A stretch of DNA of 61,078 nucleotides from a virus. The notes under the pieces are model-generated. The model searched no databases. It had not been told where the DNA came from and saw only the letters and a list, made by a program, of their open reading frames with translations. A program made the position numbers and the translations under genes. The DNA lies in IMG/VR virus record IMGVR_UViG_3300036979_000267, positions 1-61,078 of that record. One strand, written 5' to 3'. Shown here piece after piece: positions 3,286 through 61,078 of this stretch (its first letter is position 1; each line of letters begins with the position of its first letter).

Positions 3286-4917
3286 TTAAGCCTCCGCTTT
3301 CGGAACTTCCGAATACCGACGCAAGAGCGCGTCAAAAAAGTCACGACCCTTGGCACGGACTACGTGCTCGGGTATCACATACTCGCCGTTGGACACCTTG
3401 ACCGGCCCGCCCGTGGACAGGTTCTGTGTACCGATGGAATCGCTGCGCCCGGTGCCCGGCCCCTGCAGCATACCGCCATCTGGTCCGCCCGTGGGGTTGA
3501 CCATCTGCGCCTGCGATGTCGGTGGGATTTGTCCGGCAGGTGTGGGTTGCCCTTGGCCCGGCTGCGCCATGCCGCCACCTGACTGCTCCAGCGCCCGTGT
3601 AACGGACAGGATTTTGATGATAGTCATGGGGTCGTACGATGGGGGCAGCGGGGACATGCCCTGTGCAGCAACAAACTGGCGAAGCTGTGGGTATAGCTTG
3701 GGGTTCTGCATGCTGGCCATAGCAATCTGGCCCATCACAGTTATCTCCTGCGGTGTCAATTCGCCAGACTGCAGCAGGGGCTGCATGGTCTCCATGATTT
3801 TCTGGCGGAACTGGGGGTTGCGCGCCATCTGGTTCACGCGCATCTCGATCATCTGGGGCGACGTGTCTGCCCCCATGCCGGGACGGGACATACCGGGACC
3901 GCCCGTAGGGCCGCCGTTGGCAAAGCCCATGGCCAGAAGGGGACCGCCGCCGACCTCGCCGCCGTCAGCATAACCAGACATGGAGAGGCCCACCGGGCCA
4001 CCGTCTGCCATTCCGCCGCCAGACCATCCGCCTCCGGGATTTTCAGTGCTGGTACGACTTTCTGTATCAGAACTGGTGTCTGGGCCAGTGTCCGAAGTAG
4101 TGTCTGGGCCAGTGTCCGAAGTAGTGTCTGGGCTGGTATCGGCGCCGGGCGCGGAAAACGATTCGGTTCCTGTATCTGGATACCCATAATACCCACCGCC
4201 CATCGTGGCGGGGTCTTGCTGCATGGGGTTGGCCGCAGGCACATCGGCCAGCGGAGTGCCGAAGAATCCGCCAGACCCGAAGGCCGCGTTCTGCATGGAC
4301 CGGCCCACAGGGAACCCCGCGCCCACGTTGGCCGCCGTCTGCGCAGCCATGGAGCTATCAGGTCCAGTTACGCCAGTGTTATATCCTTGATACGCGTCGT
4401 ATGCAGCGCGTCCAGCACCCAACGCCAGACCGACTGGGCCGGGCAGAAAACTAGCGGCGCCGACCATCGCCTTGCCGTAGTTCTGGGCACCGATGTCTGC
4501 GCCAATCCCAGCGACTTTACCCGCAGTACCCACCGCGCGGGAAACTCCGAACAGCCCAGCGTCCCTCGTGCCAATAGCGACGGGGGCCAGCACATTGGAA
4601 ATACCCGAAGCTACCTTGGAAAAATCCTGCAGCGTACCGGGCGAACTAGGTGTGGTTTGGAAAAGTCCTGCGCCCGGCGACTGGGTATCGTTGTCGAGTG
4701 TATCTAGTCCGGGGGTAATGTTCCCAGACGATCCGCCAGGGGAATCTCCCGACCGGCCGCCCGAAGGCATCGCCTGTTCTGGGGGCAGTATTTCGGGGGC
4801 CGCGGCGTTTACCCCCGGAACGGGTATGGACACGGGTGGCGTAGCAAAATAGTTCCCTACGCTGCTAGACGCACCGCGTGCCCCACCGAGAGATTTCCGT
4901 GTTTTCTGTGTTGCCAT
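3286..4917 (-). CDS. Large Gly/Pro-rich structural protein with Thr-Ser-Asp-Thr repeats
   Basis: The 543-residue protein is rich in Gly, Pro, Ser and Met. Residues about 260-280 form tandem TGPDTTSD-type repeats, encoded by a 24-bp DNA repeat. The C-terminus carries the motif STGGPVKVSNGEYVIP followed by VRAKGRDFFDALLRRY. A GEYVIPxxVV-type motif is common near the ends of phage structural proteins such as tape-measure-like proteins, but no enzymatic domain is visible. The ATG is followed by a basic stretch. It sits 2 bases upstream of the next gene in the late operon. Function not assigned. Confidence 0.6.
   Translation of the reverse strand: MATQKTRKSLGGARGASSSVGNYFATPPVSIPVPGVNAAAPEILPPEQAMPSGGRSGDSPGGSSGNITPGLDTLDNDTQSPGAGLFQTTPSSPGTLQDFSKVASGISNVLAPVAIGTRDAGLFGVSRAVGTAGKVAGIGADIGAQNYGKAMVGAASFLPGPVGLALGAGRAAYDAYQGYNTGVTGPDSSMAAQTAANVGAGFPVGRSMQNAAFGSGGFFGTPLADVPAANPMQQDPATMGGGYYGYPDTGTESFSAPGADTSPDTTSDTGPDTTSDTGPDTSSDTESRTSTENPGGGWSGGGMADGGPVGLSMSGYADGGEVGGGPLLAMGFANGGPTGGPGMSRPGMGADTSPQMIEMRVNQMARNPQFRQKIMETMQPLLQSGELTPQEITVMGQIAMASMQNPKLYPQLRQFVAAQGMSPLPPSYDPMTIIKILSVTRALEQSGGGMAQPGQGQPTPAGQIPPTSQAQMVNPTGGPDGGMLQGPGTGRSDSIGTQNLSTGGPVKVSNGEYVIPEHVVRAKGRDFFDALLRRYSEVPKAEA
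4077..4139 (-). repeat. 24-bp in-frame tandem repeat (about 2.6 copies)
   Basis: Two exact copies of a 24-base unit (4077-4100 and 4101-4124) and a partial third lie inside the 543-residue structural gene. Because the unit is a multiple of three, copy number changes would add or remove eight residues (a TGPDTTSD-type unit) without breaking the frame. Confidence 0.85.
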
Positions 4918-4918
4918 A

Positions 4919-5266
4919 TTACCGCCTCATGTTTTCAAGGAGCGCATTGAACGCATTCTGTATTTTAGCCACGTCAGCGGCTAACTGCTGCACATCGTTG
5001 AGCAGTTTGTAGTAGTCCGCCAGAGTTGGAGAGCCATTGGCCGCTAACTGCGTGGTGTTATAGTTCGCATCGCCCCGGGCGGAAAGCTGCGTCATCACCT
5101 GTAAATTCTGGGGGGTTACGCCCACCGAGTCATTTGAGATGCTGCGCCCGGGGCCGCGCTGGCCCATCATGATCTCTATGTTTTCCTTGAACGCCGCCAA
5201 CAGGTCATACTGCCACTGCGGAATCTTCTCATTGGGTATGGACGGTATGCCCTGAAACTTTGGCAT
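4919..5266 (-). CDS. Small structural protein, coiled-coil C-terminus
   Basis: The 115-residue protein starts MPKFQGIPSIPNEKIPQWQY and ends in a helix with heptad-like hydrophobics (LLNDVQQLAADVAKIQNAF). It overlaps the stop of the upstream tail gene by one base. The layout, a short Pro-rich anchor then a coiled coil, would suit a trimeric adaptor or fibre-attachment protein, but the family was not recognised. Confidence 0.55.
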   Translation of the reverse strand: MPKFQGIPSIPNEKIPQWQYDLLAAFKENIEIMMGQRGPGRSISNDSVGVTPQNLQVMTQLSARGDANYNTTQLAANGSPTLADYYKLLNDVQQLAADVAKIQNAFNALLENMRR

Positions 5267-25667: not shown

Positions 25668-28070
25668 CTACGTCCACGCGCCGATATTGACTCTCTCGAC
25701 TTCCCGGACGGTATTGCCCATGTACGCCCCGGACTGCTGGCCGTCCGCGTGAAGCGCTAGATACTGGAGTGCGTCACAGTTGCTCACCAGCACGCCGTTG
25801 GCATAGTACGCCCCAGCCCCCTCAACGGCTATCGCGTAGACGCAGGCGGGCTGCGCTAATGGCAGCACCTGCACACACCTTAGAGCATGTTTTTGTTTTC
25901 CGGTACTTGTTCGCTTGGAACTCTGTACCGCAAACCACGCACGTGCGCGTTTCGTCATCAACTCCGCTGGCGACTCGGGCCATGCCCTGACAACTGGGGG
26001 AGCAGAACCCCCGCTTGCGGGCTCCGGCAAAGCCGTCGTACAGCTTACCGCACTGTGTGCAGACATGCTGTTGCTTTTCCCGCCCAATCCACGTAGATTT
26101 CCCGTGCTCCCGGTGCCAAGCCAGTCCATCAGGGCTACCATGCCACTGCGCAGCGGCGAGCCGGGCCGCTGCCAGATGCTCGGGCATACCGAACGTACCG
26201 TCGGCGATGCGTTCGAGGGCATGTTGCCTGCTGTGGTCGGTGCCGAGCATGAGGGCAAGGTTTTCAAGGCGGTTGTCGCTGGTGTTTCCATTGTCGTGGT
26301 GCACGTGGTGCTTGGGGGGTATTGGCCCGTTGTGGAACTCCCACACGTACCGGTGCATGTAGACCGTGCGGCGGCCAGACTCCTCATAACCAGCTTTGTA
26401 GTACCCCCGGCCTTTGCGATAGAACCGAATGCCGTTGAAAATCTGAACCGGATGTTTTGTAGCCATGGAGCGCTCCGAGTGTGGATGCTGTCCAGTATAT
26501 CAGAATACTGGAGTGCGTCAAGCGCAACCCACCCCCGTTGTGTGAGTATGGGATGGTCGGGCGTCCCCTCAAGCACCAGCCCGTCGGACAATTCCGCGCG
26601 CACCACGGGCGCAACACGGCTGTGGACCGCTGTGACCCTCCGGGGGCCAATCGGAGTCTCCACCAAGTCCCCCACGCGCAAAAGGTCCACGTCCGTCGCG
26701 CCATCCGGGGTAGCGACGCGCGTACCAGCCACAAAGCAGATGTGAGAGGCCATGTTTTTCTCCGGCTCGTCGTCCATCTCGCCCGTTTTCTTGGCCTTGT
26801 ACCGGTACTTGCCGCGCAAACCCCCAATCAAATTTAAGCACTTGTTGTCCACAAGGAACCCCGCGCCGCCGTCCACCTGTCGGTTGAGGAACTGGTCCAC
26901 CGCCCCGATGCGGGCAATCAGGGAGTTGGTGTGGGCCGAGATAGCCGTAAACCCCTCGGCTTTCAAGATGTCGTACACCGTTTTCTCGTCGGTCTGCACC
27001 CGCGAGCGTCCAGCGGGGTCGCCGATAACGAGTATGGGCGCCCCGGGAAAGTTCTGCGCCAGTAGTGGTTTCAGTATGGTACGCACGAACCGGAGCACGC
27101 CCATGCCGTCCGAGGTGGCCTCGCCCATGACCAGCAGCCTGCCCTGCATGTCAAGCTGCCCGATGACCGCACTGGGGTTCAACCCGAAGTCCATGCCGAT
27201 GAGCACTGGCCGTACCCCGTTCAGTATGGGTCGCAGCGCGCCCTTGGCGATGTGAAAGTCGGAGTCGAACGATTTCCACACGGGCTGGCCAGACAGGCTC
27301 TTGCCGAACTTCGCGTGGATGTAAATATCTATGTATTCCTCGGATTTCCCAGTTGCGAGCGTTTCATAGTACCCTGAAGGAAGCAGGTGGAGCCAGTCTG
27401 CTTCCGGGCTCGTCCCGCTAGGTTGAATTGTCACGTGTGTGTTCGATGGGGGGTTCGTCAGCAGGCCCTCGAAGTACGTGTCCATATCGGGCGGATTCGA
27501 GGCGCCCCATAGCCGGGCATTGGGGGTTCCGTCGTCCATGACACAGCCCATGCGCGGGTTACCCTTGTCGTCCGTCCCCCATTCCGGTTTGTGGGGCACC
27601 ATCATGCCATCGGGGTATCGACCCAATCGGGCCTGCAGGGCCTCGAAGATGTCCTTGTTGAGTTCGCGGAACTCGTCAATGATGGCAAAGCTCGCTTGGA
27701 GCGACAGCAGCCGCCGTACGTCTTGGGCGTCGTCAAGGCCGCGGAACAGCACATCGCACCGAATGTCACCAACAGACAGCTCAAAGCGCATCTCGGACTT
27801 GTAGTAGGTACCCGCCTCACCGTCCGGGAACCATTTTAGGAAGTCGGGAATGCTCGTGTCACGAAGTTGTTCACGTGTGTTGCGTACGAAAATGCACCGC
27901 GAGCGGCGAAAGCCATCCTTGGCCCGGGCCATGTGCCCAGCGTGGTAAAGCAGCTTCACGATCGCGGAAGTTGTCTTTGAGCTGCCTACTGGTCCACAGA
28001 TGAACGAGATGAACTTTTCCGAGGTAAAGAACGCCTCGGTGCTCGGAACTGGGGTGAAGATCAGGCTCAT
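25668..28070 (-). CDS. terL: Terminase large subunit precursor containing an intein
   Basis: The precursor is 800 residues; removal of the intein (residues 445-764) would leave a 480-residue terminase. The ATPase part has a Walker A GPVGSSKTT at 26-34 and Walker B with FAIIDEFREL (Asp132, Glu133). The RNase H-like nuclease part includes LIGMDFGLNP and ILVIGDPAG. The intein sits after Ile444, and the Cys after it is followed directly by the DALQY motif, whose Asp is the third metal ligand of TerL nucleases. The unspliced precursor should therefore be nuclease-defective. It overlaps the small subunit gene by 4 bases. Between residues about 540 and 740 the frame is a low-complexity Ser/Thr/Pro-rich out-of-frame reading of the nested endonuclease gene. 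Confidence 0.92.
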   Translation of the reverse strand: MSLIFTPVPSTEAFFTSEKFISFICGPVGSSKTTSAIVKLLYHAGHMARAKDGFRRSRCIFVRNTREQLRDTSIPDFLKWFPDGEAGTYYKSEMRFELSVGDIRCDVLFRGLDDAQDVRRLLSLQASFAIIDEFRELNKDIFEALQARLGRYPDGMMVPHKPEWGTDDKGNPRMGCVMDDGTPNARLWGASNPPDMDTYFEGLLTNPPSNTHVTIQPSGTSPEADWLHLLPSGYYETLATGKSEEYIDIYIHAKFGKSLSGQPVWKSFDSDFHIAKGALRPILNGVRPVLIGMDFGLNPSAVIGQLDMQGRLLVMGEATSDGMGVLRFVRTILKPLLAQNFPGAPILVIGDPAGRSRVQTDEKTVYDILKAEGFTAISAHTNSLIARIGAVDQFLNRQVDGGAGFLVDNKCLNLIGGLRGKYRYKAKKTGEMDDEPEKNMASHICFVAGTRVATPDGATDVDLLRVGDLVETPIGPRRVTAVHSRVAPVVRAELSDGLVLEGTPDHPILTQRGWVALDALQYSDILDSIHTRSAPWLQNIRFRFSTAFGSIAKAGGTTKLVMRSLAAARSTCTGTCGSSTTGQYPPSTTCTTTMETPATTALKTLPSCSAPTTAGNMPSNASPTVRSVCPSIWQRPGSPLRSGMVALMDWLGTGSTGNLRGLGGKSNSMSAHSAVSCTTALPEPASGGSAPPVVRAWPESPAELMTKRARAWFAVQSSKRTSTGKQKHALRCVQVLPLAQPACVYAIAVEGAGAYYANGVLVSNCDALQYLALHADGQQSGAYMGNTVREVERVNIGAWT
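25761..25776 (-). repeat. 16-bp direct repeat, extein copy
   Basis: The coding-strand sequence TGACGCACTCCAGTAT, which encodes the start of the TerL nuclease motif DALQY, is repeated exactly at 26505-26520 inside the intein, where the intein also reads DALQY. The spacing between copies is 744 bases, a whole number of codons, and encloses the nested HNH gene and intein C-terminus. Confidence 0.9.
25822..26466 (-). CDS. HNH homing endonuclease nested out of frame in the TerL intein
   Basis: A 214-residue frame, offset by two bases from terL on the same strand, starts at an ATG with GGAG six bases upstream and ends TGA. Residues about 36-75 form an HNH_3-type module: MHRYVWEFHNGPIPPKH, then HHDNG at 56-60 and NRLENL. 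Two zinc ribbons follow, CTQC/CSPSC at 136-159 and CVVC/CSKVC at 176-198. These are definite coding signatures, whereas the intein frame over the same bases is low complexity. The gene probably makes the intein mobile by cutting intein-less terL. The last 30 or so bases also encode intein block F in the other frame, so that segment is under double constraint. Confidence 0.9.
   Translation of the reverse strand: MATKHPVQIFNGIRFYRKGRGYYKAGYEESGRRTVYMHRYVWEFHNGPIPPKHHVHHDNGNTSDNRLENLALMLGTDHSRQHALERIADGTFGMPEHLAAARLAAAQWHGSPDGLAWHREHGKSTWIGREKQQHVCTQCGKLYDGFAGARKRGFCSPSCQGMARVASGVDDETRTCVVCGTEFQANKYRKTKTCSKVCAGAAISAARLRLRDSR
26505..26520 (-). repeat. 16-bp direct repeat, intein copy
   Basis: This copy matches the extein DALQY-coding sequence at 25761-25776 exactly. 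It lies 39 bases upstream of the nested HNH start codon, at the end of the N-terminal splicing segment (GWVALDALQYSDIL). Confidence 0.9.
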
Positions 28071-36218: not shown

Positions 36219-36536
36219 GTGTCTAATATAGATGGCAACGGCTACGGCAACGGCAACGGCTACGGCAGCGGCTACGGCTACGGCGACGGCTACGGCTACG
36301 GCGACGGCGACGGCGACGGCAGCGGCGACGGCAACGGCAACGGCGACGGCGACGGCAACAGCCACGGCAACGGCAACGGCAACGGCAGCGGCTACGGCAA
36401 CGGCAAAGGCGGCGGCTACGGCAAAGGCTACGGCAACGGCAACGGCAACGGCAACGGCATACAACCCTTCGTGGTCTCGGATTACACCGGCGACAGCATG
36501 GCATCGGCTGTGCTGGTTTCACAACTTGTTACCTAA
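36219..36536 (+). CDS. Gly-Asn/Tyr/Asp dipeptide-repeat protein
   Basis: The 105-residue frame starts at GTG (36219), one base after the preceding stop. Residues 5-82 alternate Gly with Asn, Tyr, Asp, Ser or Lys (for example GNGYGNGNGYGSGYGYGDG). The last 25 residues, PFVVSDYTGDSMASAVLV, form a more ordinary domain. The bias for GGC at Gly and a mix of aromatic and acidic residues resemble phase-separating or surface-adhesive repeat peptides, but nothing proves a function. The stop TAA is from palindrome copy 8. Confidence 0.7.
   Translation: MSNIDGNGYGNGNGYGSGYGYGDGYGYGDGDGDGSGDGNGNGDGDGNSHGNGNGNGSGYGNGKGGGYGKGYGNGNGNGNGIQPFVVSDYTGDSMASAVLVSQLVT
36231..36459 (+). repeat. Tandem GGCNNC repeat tract
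   Basis: About 38 consecutive hexamer units of the form GGC plus NAC or NGC run without interruption. In frame 36219 they give Gly-X dipeptides. Such a tract is prone to slipped-strand expansion and contraction, always in whole codons. Confidence 0.9.
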
Positions 36537-37750: not shown

Positions 37751-38227
37751 ATGACAACTGATATGACCCAAGAGCTGCTGCGCAGCATCCTCCAATACGA
37801 CCCGCTCACCGGCGTGTTCGTATGGTTAGTTGATAGCGGCGCGCGAAAGTGCAAAGGGAATGCGGCGGGTACGCCCGGCATGGAGCGCCCCTGCATATAC
37901 ATCAGCTACAAACGGCGCAAGTACCTTGCGCATCGACTGGCTTGGCTGTATATGCAGGGCGTGTGGCCAGAGGATACGGTTGACCATCGGGATGGCAATC
38001 CAGCGAACAATCGGTGGAGCAATCTGAGGCTGGCCACCCGTTCGCAGCAACGGCAGAACCAGCATCGCCCGAGGGGCGCGAACCCCTTCGTGGGGGTGTA
38101 CCCGTCGAAGGAACAGTACGTTGCGAAGATCGACAATCGGCACCTTGGGTATTTCCCCACGCCGGAGTTGGCCAGCGAGGCATATCAGGCGGAGAAGGCG
38201 AGGGTGCACACGCATCTTCCTGAGTAA
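37751..38227 (+). CDS. HNH_3 homing endonuclease with AP2-like C-terminus
   Basis: The 158-residue protein has an N-terminal LQYDPLTGVFVWL motif, then YLAHRLAWLYMQGVWPEDT and VDHRDGNPANNRWSNL (His79), the HNH_3 core. A C-terminal AP2-like DNA-binding segment (NPFVGVYPSKEQYVAKID, HLGYFPTPELASEAYQ) follows. The start is uncertain between ATG 37751 and ATG 37733; the former is used. It sits between the DUF3150-like and MoxR-like genes and is probably an insertion. Confidence 0.85.
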   Translation: MTTDMTQELLRSILQYDPLTGVFVWLVDSGARKCKGNAAGTPGMERPCIYISYKRRKYLAHRLAWLYMQGVWPEDTVDHRDGNPANNRWSNLRLATRSQQRQNQHRPRGANPFVGVYPSKEQYVAKIDNRHLGYFPTPELASEAYQAEKARVHTHLPE

Positions 38228-58300: not shown

Positions 58301-61078
58301 GCGAAGCGAACTTCTGGTCCTGTGTGCTGGGTATCTGGCGCAGCGCGGCGACAAAGTCGGGCATGGTCATGCCGTAGGACACCAGTTCCAGCAGGGCAGC
58401 GTTGATGTCCCCCGGTTTGTCGGACTTGGCCAGCCCAGCAATGATGTCGTAGGCGGCCTTGGCGTTCGGGCTCTTGAGTTTGGAGCGGTCGTAGGCCACC
58501 ACGTCCTTGACGGCTTGGCGCAGACGCGCGACGCTCGGGTTGTTGGGCTGTGTGTACACAAGCCACTGCAGGGCAGCGTGAAGCGCCTCGTGCAGCGTTA
58601 CCTCGGCAGATGCGGTTTTAGACAGGTGGATGGTGTCTGTCGCAGGTGTGTAGCTGGCGTGCTCGCCCTCTGCCACGTCGAAAACGACCTTGGGTTTCTT
58701 GGTCTGGCCGCGCATAGCCCGCGACAACGCCGATGCCAGCATGCGTTCGTACGACGTGTTGCCGTGCGCCCACAGGTAGTTGAGTACGCCTTGGAATCCC
58801 TTTTCTTTGGCACCCTTCGTGTGCCCTGCGTAACCGTTTTCTGCGGCGGCGACCAGCGGCTCCTCTGCAGCGCCTTTCTTCTGGATTTCCCACGCGTTGC
58901 GCTTCTCGCCCGTGGAGAGATTGACAAGGTTCTCGGTATTCTCCAACTGCCCGTCGTTGAACATTTTCCACGCGCGACTGAGATTCACGTCCATGGAGGT
59001 CCAGTATGCGCCCTTATCGGTGTCGGTGGTTTTCTTGGCCATCTCGGTCTGCACGCGGGTCTTGAACGCCGCCACGAGGGCGTTGGCGTTGGCCGCCGAG
59101 CCGGATGCAGCAATCAATTCTTCGACGGCGTTGCGCAGTTGCTGCTGGGCTAGTTGTCGAGCCTCGGTGTATTGGGTAGCCTGCAGCGTTCGGGTGCCCG
59201 CGGACTTAGAGATGCTCCCTTCTGACCGCAGCGTGTTGCTCGCCAGATTTGACAACTTCTCGTACGCCTTGGCCACCTTTAGCGCGGCGTCGCGCATGCC
59301 GGTCATCTGTGTAGCGTACTTCTTGGTCAGGTCTTTGTCGGTCTTGGCCGTGCCCTCGACGTAAATCAATGGGGTAGCTGGGGCATTGGTGTCAGGGTTG
59401 AACGGCTTGCGCAGTGCGCGCACGATACCTGCCATGATGTTGCGGCCGATGGTGATACGCCCCTTGGGTTTGCCGCCCGGCAGGGATTGCACGGCAGACT
59501 CCAGTGCCTTGTTGGTCATGGACATACCGGCACCAGAGGCCATAGCGTCCGCAACTGCCTGCGCTAGTTCGGACTCGGGTGTGGATTCGTCGAAGGGTTC
59601 GGCAACCGTTGCCGTTGCTTTGGGTGCCTTTGGACCCTTGGTCGGGGCGGGCTTGGCCGGGGCGACAGGTGCGACAGGCTCTTTACCCGCGATCTTGTCG
59701 TCGATCATCCCCAGAATTTGCGCCTTGGTGGGCTTGCCAGTGATCTGGATGCCCATGTCCTGCGCGGTACGCGCGATGTCGCTGCGGGTCTGCCGGGCGA
59801 GTTTCTGGCGGTCAAAAGGCTCCGCAGGAGTTTGTGGCTCCTGCGGAGTAACTGAGGGGGCGACCGCAGAAGAAACTCCCTCAGAAGGAGACAGAGGTGA
59901 TTCTACCCCGAAAGCACCCGATACGGCTGCGATGCGTTGCTCGACGAGGTCTTCTTTGCGGGCTTGTTCGGCTGCGATGCGTTCTTGCTCGGCCATGGCC
60001 GCCGCACGTTGCTCCTCCAGTGACCCATATCCGCCTTCGAGCGTGGGCTGCGACTGGGGCATACCCTGCCATTCGACACCCGCCTGCCCAGCAGACACAG
60101 GAGCCACTTCCCCTTGGGGAGCGCCTTGGAGTCCCACCATGCTCAGTGGTCCCATGTCGGACGGGGTCATGCCCTGCCACTCCTGTCCGGCGGTAGTAAT
60201 TGGGGTGGATGCTGGGTTGTATCCCATGGGGATAGCGGTGCCCGCGAATATATCTGGCTGGTCCATAACGCGAGGGTCGGCGGACTGCATTTGCGGGGTA
60301 GGGGGATACATTGCAAACTCTCCGCGCCCGCCGAACATATCGGATGTCGGGCCTTCGGAAACTGGCGCGTACTCCTGCGCCGGAGCCGCTGTCTCGGGGG
60401 CCTGTGGCAGCGCTCCCTTCGGGCGGTTCGCATACCCGGCGGCCACGCCAAACGGGGCCATGAGCGCGGACATACCGAGGCCAACTTTCGCACCCTCGAC
60501 GCCTGCGGCGAACGGGTCTCCGGTGGTGATCCCGGCATCGCGCTCCACGGCGGTCTGCCCGTAGGCTTGACCGAATTCTGTACCAGCCTGCACACCGGCG
60601 TTGGCCAGCAAGTCCACAGCCACGCGTTTGCCCTGCCCCATCTGCACGCCCTTGGCCATGGCGGAAAGACCCTTGCCAGCGCCAGTAATCAGCCCGAGAC
60701 CCAGCCGGTCGCCAATAAGTTCTCCACCCGCCTCGATAGCGCCGGTCTTCAGGGCCGCAGCCTTGGCATCCTCTTGGCTCAGGCCCGCTTTAAGACCTCG
60801 CTCGTAGGTGTCGGACGCTGTGGAACCGAAAAACAGTCCACCGGCTACGCCTGTGCCCACGATGGGAGCCGCCATCATTGCGGCGCCCGCAGCCACAGAA
60901 GGGGCAAGGGACCGGCCGCCCTTGATGAGCGCAGAGGCGACTTCGCCCCGACCATACACGTCGGGGTTGTACTGGGCTTGGCCCGTGTCGAACTCGTCAC
61001 CCGTTTGTTTCAGGAATTCTTCGGCCGCTGACCCCGCCGGGGCAGCAAACTGCGCGGCGCGCACACCCATCTGGGGGA
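55347..61078 (-). CDS. Giant internal virion protein, main part (full length 2071 aa across the join)
   Basis: This part runs from residue about 165 (Met at 61070) to the stop at 55347; the frame begins at 611 on the other side of the join. Residues about 218-246 are an Ala/Gly-rich hydrophobic segment, followed by long disordered Pro/Gln-rich linkers. A zinc-peptidase-like LHEALHAALQWL lies at 990-1001 (His991, Glu992, His995). Further on, TIYNPGTHLTNIASNTT at about 1610 and a two-span membrane-like region near 1795-1840 resemble large polyvalent-protein-associated domains of ejected phage proteins. It probably enters the host with the DNA and forms the ejection channel or modifies host proteins. 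Evidence is by pattern and context. Confidence 0.8.
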   Translation of the reverse strand, partial: PQMGVRAAQFAAPAGSAAEEFLKQTGDEFDTGQAQYNPDVYGRGEVASALIKGGRSLAPSVAAGAAMMAAPIVGTGVAGGLFFGSTASDTYERGLKAGLSQEDAKAAALKTGAIEAGGELIGDRLGLGLITGAGKGLSAMAKGVQMGQGKRVAVDLLANAGVQAGTEFGQAYGQTAVERDAGITTGDPFAAGVEGAKVGLGMSALMAPFGVAAGYANRPKGALPQAPETAAPAQEYAPVSEGPTSDMFGGRGEFAMYPPTPQMQSADPRVMDQPDIFAGTAIPMGYNPASTPITTAGQEWQGMTPSDMGPLSMVGLQGAPQGEVAPVSAGQAGVEWQGMPQSQPTLEGGYGSLEEQRAAAMAEQERIAAEQARKEDLVEQRIAAVSGAFGVESPLSPSEGVSSAVAPSVTPQEPQTPAEPFDRQKLARQTRSDIARTAQDMGIQITGKPTKAQILGMIDDKIAGKEPVAPVAPAKPAPTKGPKAPKATATVAEPFDESTPESELAQAVADAMASGAGMSMTNKALESAVQSLPGGKPKGRITIGRNIMAGIVRALRKPFNPDTNAPATPLIYVEGTAKTDKDLTKKYATQMTGMRDAALKVAKAYEKLSNLASNTLRSEGSISKSAGTRTLQATQYTEARQLAQQQLRNAVEELIAASGSAANANALVAAFKTRVQTEMAKKTTDTDKGAYWTSMDVNLSRAWKMFNDGQLENTENLVNLSTGEKRNAWEIQKKGAAEEPLVAAAENGYAGHTKGAKEKGFQGVLNYLWAHGNTSYERMLASALSRAMRGQTKKPKVVFDVAEGEHASYTPATDTIHLSKTASAEVTLHEALHAALQWLVYTQPNNPSVARLRQAVKDVVAYDRSKLKSPNAKAAYDIIAGLAKSDKPGDINAALLELVSYGMTMPDFVAALRQIPSTQDQKFASLANKLYDMFAKLLQRFLGVSNTVANDVMDATARLLEESTVNDRAKAFGENVVKRGSTLNAAVTSSTPASNAAQPGQPQSLDLTQFTKKLIPNIITEHLFRAMGWTKLSGQEVMNDKGELEMQEGSFQKTAGKVANYIKDKSPALSKYISYVNPTFGVPVPMREWFQTFKTDKHTSAIVTDALANKIASFDAPIVLEIIRYLDGDVKEIRVGDKAQVEAKELADMMLEHRARYIAALRSPKAKAFFRDLKFSESMVFATSADQVSSNALGARKLNELAAQKTLKSMSDNIYGPLDNMGKPTPGGRYKQLMQTDPVNPTKEPIPAGFVHESRWDSLPADTFPANDGLIWTFEGKAVEADTYVFTAYRDAKAAIDEGKADSVANALRNTMAILAASYASNNLTDAIASKSGDADSVVFDNVKQLNKALDITVLPNSILNLSDPEAKSPKLQGIYRSKHQWVQIPAKGDIEVEIDGKVVSVPVGTYGALQGKLVRSDVWAAVQDMTDRRPIHDISALHDTMRLFKKAKTIYNPGTHLTNIASNTTLAMMHDIPMVTVGKATAMLFNYARNPDAMALEERRVMHAFMNSGAMLGDFSSIEVKRSLYEAYKASAATNEPTGVYDKLRGWASTELAKRDKLAKWVKEGGKTDDRITAFYAAEDNAFRLAAFLSKAGEIATTKGKTYLTPAEFKKAGDYARFAFLDYDIDSKAVKVMRQSVLPFVSWSYAIMPVLGHIALHKPWKLVNVLLAYSILDAAMGGDEDDEVRKGGPEKFQSRLWGVGPHAYIRLPGLGDDQNPVYYKLGAYVPTGNWFDKQPQGFLGINNWPQPVSPGGPFTNAIIGLMGGVDPYTGKPLSAPTDSTWEEVGDRAKFMAQTFTPPWAPTAADVATKAMGGQGKPELGITGNPVGNLDAAQKFLGLQVHSFNTIEAGAVQAMVARGINAEFDKEVAKMRRLSSQYKDLAEAQIAFNARRDELLQRRDERIRELKGE
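60952..61078. repeat. Terminal direct repeat, right copy (contig overlap)
   Basis: It is identical to bases 1-127. The giant gene frame is continuous through the join when one copy is removed, confirming circular closure. Confidence 0.93.

Follow-up and report, generated by a model that had tools for sequence, protein, structure and literature searches.

Introduction

The textbook intein has its endonuclease joined in frame to both splicing halves, which flank it, and the whole forms one shared product. Within the large terminase subunit (TerL) of mycobacteriophages, inteins are found in the ATPase domain; of seven, five were tested and shown to splice, and endonuclease activity was shown for two (PMC5050341). 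A different arrangement is described for phage ShiLan, where an HNH gene lies in a different frame from its host gene, the insertion leaves the host frame open and the distribution is disjunct. Residues 1-11 of that insertion are similar to the 11 that come next after the site of insertion, and the paper reports no detectable splicing domain or ribosome binding site (PMC11855218). A methylase with an out-of-frame HNH is mentioned in PMC12613952. In phage T4, the td intron carries the endonuclease gene for I-TevI under its own promoter; a sequence overlapping this promoter resembles the I-TevI homing site at 15 of 20 nt, and I-TevI represses itself there (PMC2988022).

The locus described here shares with ShiLan an HNH gene in a different frame, a host frame left open by the insertion and a disjunct distribution. 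Unlike in ShiLan, this HNH gene lies inside a recognisable intein in TerL, with its splicing domains present, and is accompanied by a Shine-Dalgarno-like motif and a promoter-like sequence. The likeness to the td intron consists of an endonuclease gene with a promoter-like sequence of its own inside a splicing element, and, in the window, of a sequence like the presumed homing site over that putative promoter. I-TevI is a GIY-YIG enzyme in a group I intron whose binding was tested, whereas here the likeness is one of sequence and the region additionally codes for intein protein. In contrast to the mycobacteriophage inteins, the present one lies near the TerL C-terminus, at the motif DALQY, and its nuclease is out of frame. 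A literature search that covered few subscription papers returned no intein combining splicing domains with an out-of-frame endonuclease, and ShiLan as the one clear precedent.

Results

An intein near the C-terminus of TerL

The window, meaning the whole stretch of DNA analysed, is a virus record of 61,078 bases, the ends of which share 127 identical bases (1-127 and 60952-61078), as expected when a complete genome has been assembled as a circle. The features of the TerL locus are collected in Table 1.

Table 1. Features of the TerL locus in the window
Feature	Position	Strand	Basis
TerL gene (large terminase subunit), frame of 800 codons with the intein counted in	25668..28070	-	phrog_2, E 4.6e-22; intein-less relative L003
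Extein copy of 16-mer TGACGCACTCCAGTAT, codes TerL DALQY directly 3' of intein	25761..25776	-	exact match
Intein, 320 codons, CFVAGT...VSN then +1 Cys	25779..26738	-	boundaries from L003; Hint_2; PDB inteins; fold prediction; Foldseek
Nested HNH_3 endonuclease gene, 214 aa, frame 2 relative to intein	25822..26466	-	PF13392, E 1.8e-15; phrog_15471, E 8e-35
Putative Shine-Dalgarno GGAG, 6 nt 5' of HNH ATG (26466)	26473..26476	-	SD-like motif in 39/53 loci
Hint block LDALQYSDIL, overlaps putative promoter	26493..26522	-	aligned to 2lwy AGKLQVGDKL; structure prediction
Putative extended -10 TGA-TATACT (hexamer 26499..26494)	26494..26502	-	TATACT identical in L002 and L005
Internal copy of 16-mer TGACGCACTCCAGTAT, codes DALQY of Hint block	26505..26520	-	exact match
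Putative -35 box TTGACG	26516..26521	-	identical in L002 and L005

The intein carries the expected blocks CFVAGT, TPDHP and VSN followed by the +1 Cys, which supply Cys1, the block-B His and the terminal Asn; the penultimate residue is Ser, not His. Matches to Hint_2 (E 7.9e-8) and intein_Cterm (TIGR01443; 16.8 bits against 15.6) are above cut-off, and TIGR01445 falls slightly under its own (23.1 against 24.5). The boundaries are set by a close relative (L003), whose TerL is 96% identical and contains no intein. It reads SHI-A-DALQY, with Ala at +1, and its extein codons are GAC GCA CTC CAG TAT. In the AlphaFold2 prediction, the blocks of residues 1-80 and 291-320 have a mean pLDDT of at least 90 and residues of about 94-280 fall below 50; the best Foldseek matches of the predicted intein are solved inteins.

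Another relative (L008; TerL 86% identical to that of the window) has a different intein at the P-loop (4088-4978, plus strand), within which an HNH endonuclease gene lies on the opposite strand (4113-4865, minus strand; phrog_10730, E 6.3e-45). Elsewhere in the window, the HNH protein has a weak second match (37910-38056, plus strand; E 2.2e-4), and GC-rich hexamer repeats (ACGGCA, ACGGCT, ACGGCG) form a run at 36239-36459. The palindrome TAATCCCRYGGGATTA occurs between 30211 and 44984 in 11 exact copies and one near copy, with none expected by chance; these are possibly operators or some other phage-specific element.

A family of inteins with a nested HNH gene

The nested layout recurs in dozens of related phages, and this family is the larger find. 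A search with an HNH profile gave 47 viral loci; the TerL frame is open across the entire HNH match in 45, and in the remaining two the match continues up to the edge of the retrieved sequence. Among 280 loci gathered more widely, 82 inteins are recognisable, 75 of them with an HNH gene, which occupies the same relative alternative frame in 75/75. The same layout is present in Tetrasphaera phage TJE1, Rhodobacteraceae phage LS06-2018-MD07 and MT838676, and on contigs of Frankia, a Gemmatimonadaceae bacterium and Piscinibacter sakaiensis. It also occurs on a contig of a Methanomethylophilaceae archaeon, where the C-junction was not recognised. By its record coordinates, Acinetobacter phage Highwayman has an HNH at the same offset within its annotated TerL; the intein pattern was not matched there. 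Gene callers name the whole locus ‘terminase large subunit’, for example in the TJE1 and Highwayman records, and the nuclease is overlooked.

Across the HNH gene the intein frame is stop-free in all 44 loci tested, a set that leaves out loci with an HNH match shorter than 120 codons or without HNH coordinates. Codon shuffles that preserve the HNH protein gave 76 intein-frame stops in total over these loci (log10 probability -49.6), and the third frame showed little stop depletion (632 vs 660). Between the window and its relative L002, identity is 87% for the HNH protein and 61% for the intein frame over it, compared with 90% for the N-intein and 100% for the C-intein; substitutions by HNH codon position number 24/20/68. 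By this pattern of substitutions the HNH_3 domain is under purifying selection. The identities by frame, the open frames, the AlphaFold2 prediction and the Foldseek matches together indicate that in the overlap it is the HNH frame which is constrained, and that the intein frame serves there as a linker from which stops are excluded.

Counts over the family were made on 53 non-redundant HNH-bearing inteins, after removal of the near-duplicates L004, L098, L118 and L155; removing five more without a recognisable extein motif left 48 for comparisons with the extein. The HNH gene starts 3' of the Hint block with ATG in 46 of the 53, and 39 have an SD-like motif. In L030 the HNH frame has ATA after the SD-like motif, where relatives have ATG. 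Two inteins resemble HNH-deletion derivatives: one (L122:3672-4164) keeps a 59-residue HNH remnant and the other (L189:3168-3563) the HNH 3' end.

Free-standing homologues of the HNH gene adjoin terminase genes in Pseudomonas phage PAE1, Sphaerotilus phage SN1, Exiguobacterium phage EauM-23, Acinetobacter phage BP10 and Lactobacillus phage CL2. In these phages the HNH gene is not nested, and the adjoining TerL genes, at 404-516 codons, appear intein-free by length.

The repeated 16-mer and the Hint block

The original prediction concerned an exact 16-bp repeat, TGACGCACTCCAGTAT, which was said to code for DALQY in both TerL and the intein, at a spacing of 744 nt (a multiple of three), and to flank the HNH gene. 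Both copies are present on the minus strand, DALQY is coded at each in the TerL/intein frame, the spacing is as given, and the HNH gene sits between them. The extein copy abuts the intein, the +1 Cys codon (25778..25776) ending on the first base of the 16-mer. No third copy was found in the whole window with up to three mismatches allowed.

As DNA, the repeat exceeds base-level chance: none of 200 dinucleotide shuffles gave an exact repeat of at least 16 within 1 kb, although with no limit on distance within the window a shuffle holds on average 0.59 exact 16-mer repeats (n=200). The picture changes once DALQY is given at both sites, for five identical codons then have a probability of 0.036 under the codon usage of this gene. 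The same pentapeptide occurs internally and in the extein in 12 non-redundant HNH-bearing inteins, so 0.43 perfect codon matches are expected. A single perfect match among 12 is unremarkable, and chance is adequate. The internal and extein sites of the window match at 16/16, the highest of 48 loci, followed by 15, 14 and 14. The closest nested relatives, L002 and L004, are already imperfect (internal GCG vs extein GCA), L002 matching at 14/16.

As protein, the internal copy is a standard Hint/intein block (aDaLQySDiL). In a profile of 16 inteins, ADALQYSDIL aligns with AGKLQVGDKL of the bacterial intein-like domain 2lwy, and D-A-L-Q therefore occupies the position of G-K-L-Q. Eight other phage inteins were compared, of which four are clear at this block and read SAEALW, LAENLT, VAAKLV and QAANLT.

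What varies is the Tyr of the block. Its codon is present in 38/53 HNH-bearing inteins vs 1/7 HNH-less TerL inteins, three of the seven being assigned by eye and L188, which is not TerL, being excluded (Fisher p 0.006, uncorrected for ancestry); 15 of the 53 are without it. The HNH-less relatives have lost the Tyr: L189 reads ADALDSSS where the HNH-bearing L098 reads ADALNYSH, and L143 and L275 read ADQLECVE where L028 and L030 read ADALQYVN. The predicted link between the internal copy and the nested gene thus held for the Tyr codon, and the 16 bases themselves were found in none of the HNH-less inteins checked (four in TerL, and L188).

A promoter-like sequence over the internal copy

The internal copy overlies the -35 box and spacer of a putative sigma70-like promoter, TTGACG-N16-TATACT, whose second hexamer is preceded by TG (extended -10) and which is placed directly 5' of the HNH Shine-Dalgarno and ATG. 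Scored with weights for the hexamers and penalties for the spacer that were set for this analysis on E. coli frequencies, which may not be those of the host, it ranks fourth in the 61-kb window on both strands; against synonymous recodings its p is 0.003. In L005 both hexamers are exact though the residues there are IDDIQYTDIL, and L156 has a perfect TTGACA-N17-TATAAT.

Over the 53 HNH-bearing inteins, block windows outscore 467 control windows from the same genes (Mann-Whitney p 3.5e-11). The signal persists over 21 clusters formed by N-intein identity (p 0.0007; 15/21 positive), and the best -10 begins at the Tyr codon position in 21/53. Individually, only 10 or 11 of the 53 reach p of about 0.05, and many score poorly. 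Five HNH-less inteins considered as a negative control have z of 0.35 to 1.35 in the block window, not below the HNH-bearing mean of 0.97; HNH presence does not therefore separate promoter scores, and this control was set aside as too small.

A palindrome, CAGTAT-N6-ATACTG, spans the putative promoter (26493-26510). The internal block of L028 and L030 forms a perfect 18-bp palindrome, CAGTATGTTAACATACTG, and CAGTAY-N6-ATACTG is imperfect in L002 and L015.

Relation of the internal block to the TerL motif

Among 156 codons for residues shared by the internal and extein sites, 64 are identical vs 63.0 expected from other loci (p 0.45). The 15-nt match of the block to its own extein exceeds that under free swapping (9.40 vs 8.78, p 0.001), with no effect in a control segment, but the excess is gone within extein class (9.40 vs 9.30, p 0.31), and locus-specific target mimicry was rejected on this ground. 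Over 60 nt a small excess remains within extein class (21.90 vs 20.95, p 0.0027), and under free swapping some excess was found as well in a control segment lying 90 nt upstream (p 0.046). DALQY stands internally where the extein reads DAHQY (L015) or DANQY (L028, L030).

Covariation of internal and extein residues, significant by plain permutation, was likewise set aside. The internal D/E column ranks first of 112 intein columns for association with the extein D/E state, a result that rests on six loci with E. The internal Q/R association ranks only 9/112 and 34 columns exceed z 3, so that ancestry suffices to explain it. Upstream of free-standing HNH genes, no copy of the TerL motif was found in L289 (9/16, p 0.76), the sole independently searchable locus of four; the 16/16 match in L286 is the TerL motif itself, and L287 and L288 gave no motif.

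Discussion

The internal 16-mer is probably a Hint block that overlaps a sigma70-type promoter of the nested HNH gene, and not a copied or captured target. At the level of sequence, the loci present the nested architecture, the open frames and hexamers that recur, and present no locus-specific matching. The 16-mer would have a dual role, coding for LDALQYSDIL in the intein frame while its DNA lies across the -35 and spacer of the putative promoter, which, with the Shine-Dalgarno and ATG, would express the HNH endonuclease nested in the other frame. The likeness to TerL DALQY may then come from the Hint consensus A-x-x-L-Q-x-x-D-x-L, the HNH-associated Tyr codon, from which much of the family would take the TA for its -10 box, and chance codon agreement. 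Translation of the intein would continue across the HNH region, yielding a disordered linker there, before the intein is spliced out, and the HNH protein, made separately, probably promotes homing into intein-less terL. That the promoter works, the intein splices and the HNH protein cuts terL is what we infer.

The boldest alternative is that the HNH protein binds DALQY DNA both at its TerL homing site and at a copy in its promoter, and represses itself as I-TevI does. The layout is that of T4, where likeness to the I-TevI homing site overlaps the promoter (PMC2988022), and both the complete match across -35 and spacer in the window and the leading rank of the D/E column suit it. In the window, a homing-site-like sequence does lie over the putative promoter. 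This reading is nonetheless unlikely, and is not preferred, because across the family the match is not preserved at each locus: it disappears within extein class, L005 retains the promoter with only 10/16 of its own extein matched, the D/E signal comes from few loci and that of Q/R from ancestry, and free-standing L289 lacks a copy. That Hint block and TerL motif agree by pure coincidence, and that the DNA acts neither as promoter nor as operator, is improbable. The expected number of perfect codon matches and the undiminished promoter scores of HNH-less inteins would fit it, yet the promoter-like signal exceeds both the synonymous null and the control windows.

The original prediction offered two histories for the repeat, and neither was borne out. 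Invasion by an ancestral HNH gene of an intein that held a sequence like its TerL target has a counterpart in the I-TevII model of Loizos et al., as described in PMC3984707, and in the HNH homologues that stand free beside terminase genes. It is very unlikely here: of 60 nt compared between the two window sites 28 are alike, 16 of these being the repeat itself, with no resemblance outside it, and the nested layout is common to inteins with differing internal and extein motifs, so the present-day perfect match cannot record entry. Gene conversion or repair that copied the extein flank into the intein can scarcely be credited, even with the perfect match confined to the window lineage, since the window differs from L002 by one internal base of the pentapeptide codons (GCG/GCA) and by base three of the +1 Cys codon in the extein, the block is already there in L002 and L005, codons match no better than they do between loci, and the intein-less L003 already has the extein codons. 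It was further proposed that deletion between the copies would remove the nested gene. On paper this is in frame and takes the intein C-terminus with it, but a search for such products gave none, the lone match (L138) being the same contig as L099; the HNH loss in L189 retained the C-intein and bypassed the repeat.

As to origin, the free-standing homologues beside terL, together with reviews that cover endonuclease-gene invasion and collaborative homing (PMC3984707 and PMC2988022), make it plausible that the intein captured a terL-associated HNH gene at the same site. With these terL-adjacent homologues, nature supplies a series in which the way endonuclease genes become part of splicing elements can be tested.

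The nested HNH is a separate gene that is read in a different frame from a start of its own and has a promoter-like sequence, and the intein frame stays open across it, an arrangement that would uncouple nuclease expression from that of TerL. A single stretch of DNA would meet the demands of the Hint block and the promoter together. That a 28-bp stretch might have a third role as well, as a mimic of the TerL target through which the HNH protein represses itself in a loop like that of I-TevI, is an unlikely extension. If true, a protein-splicing element would harbour a feedback loop, in a family whose contigs, viral as well as cellular, are those of both bacteria and archaea.
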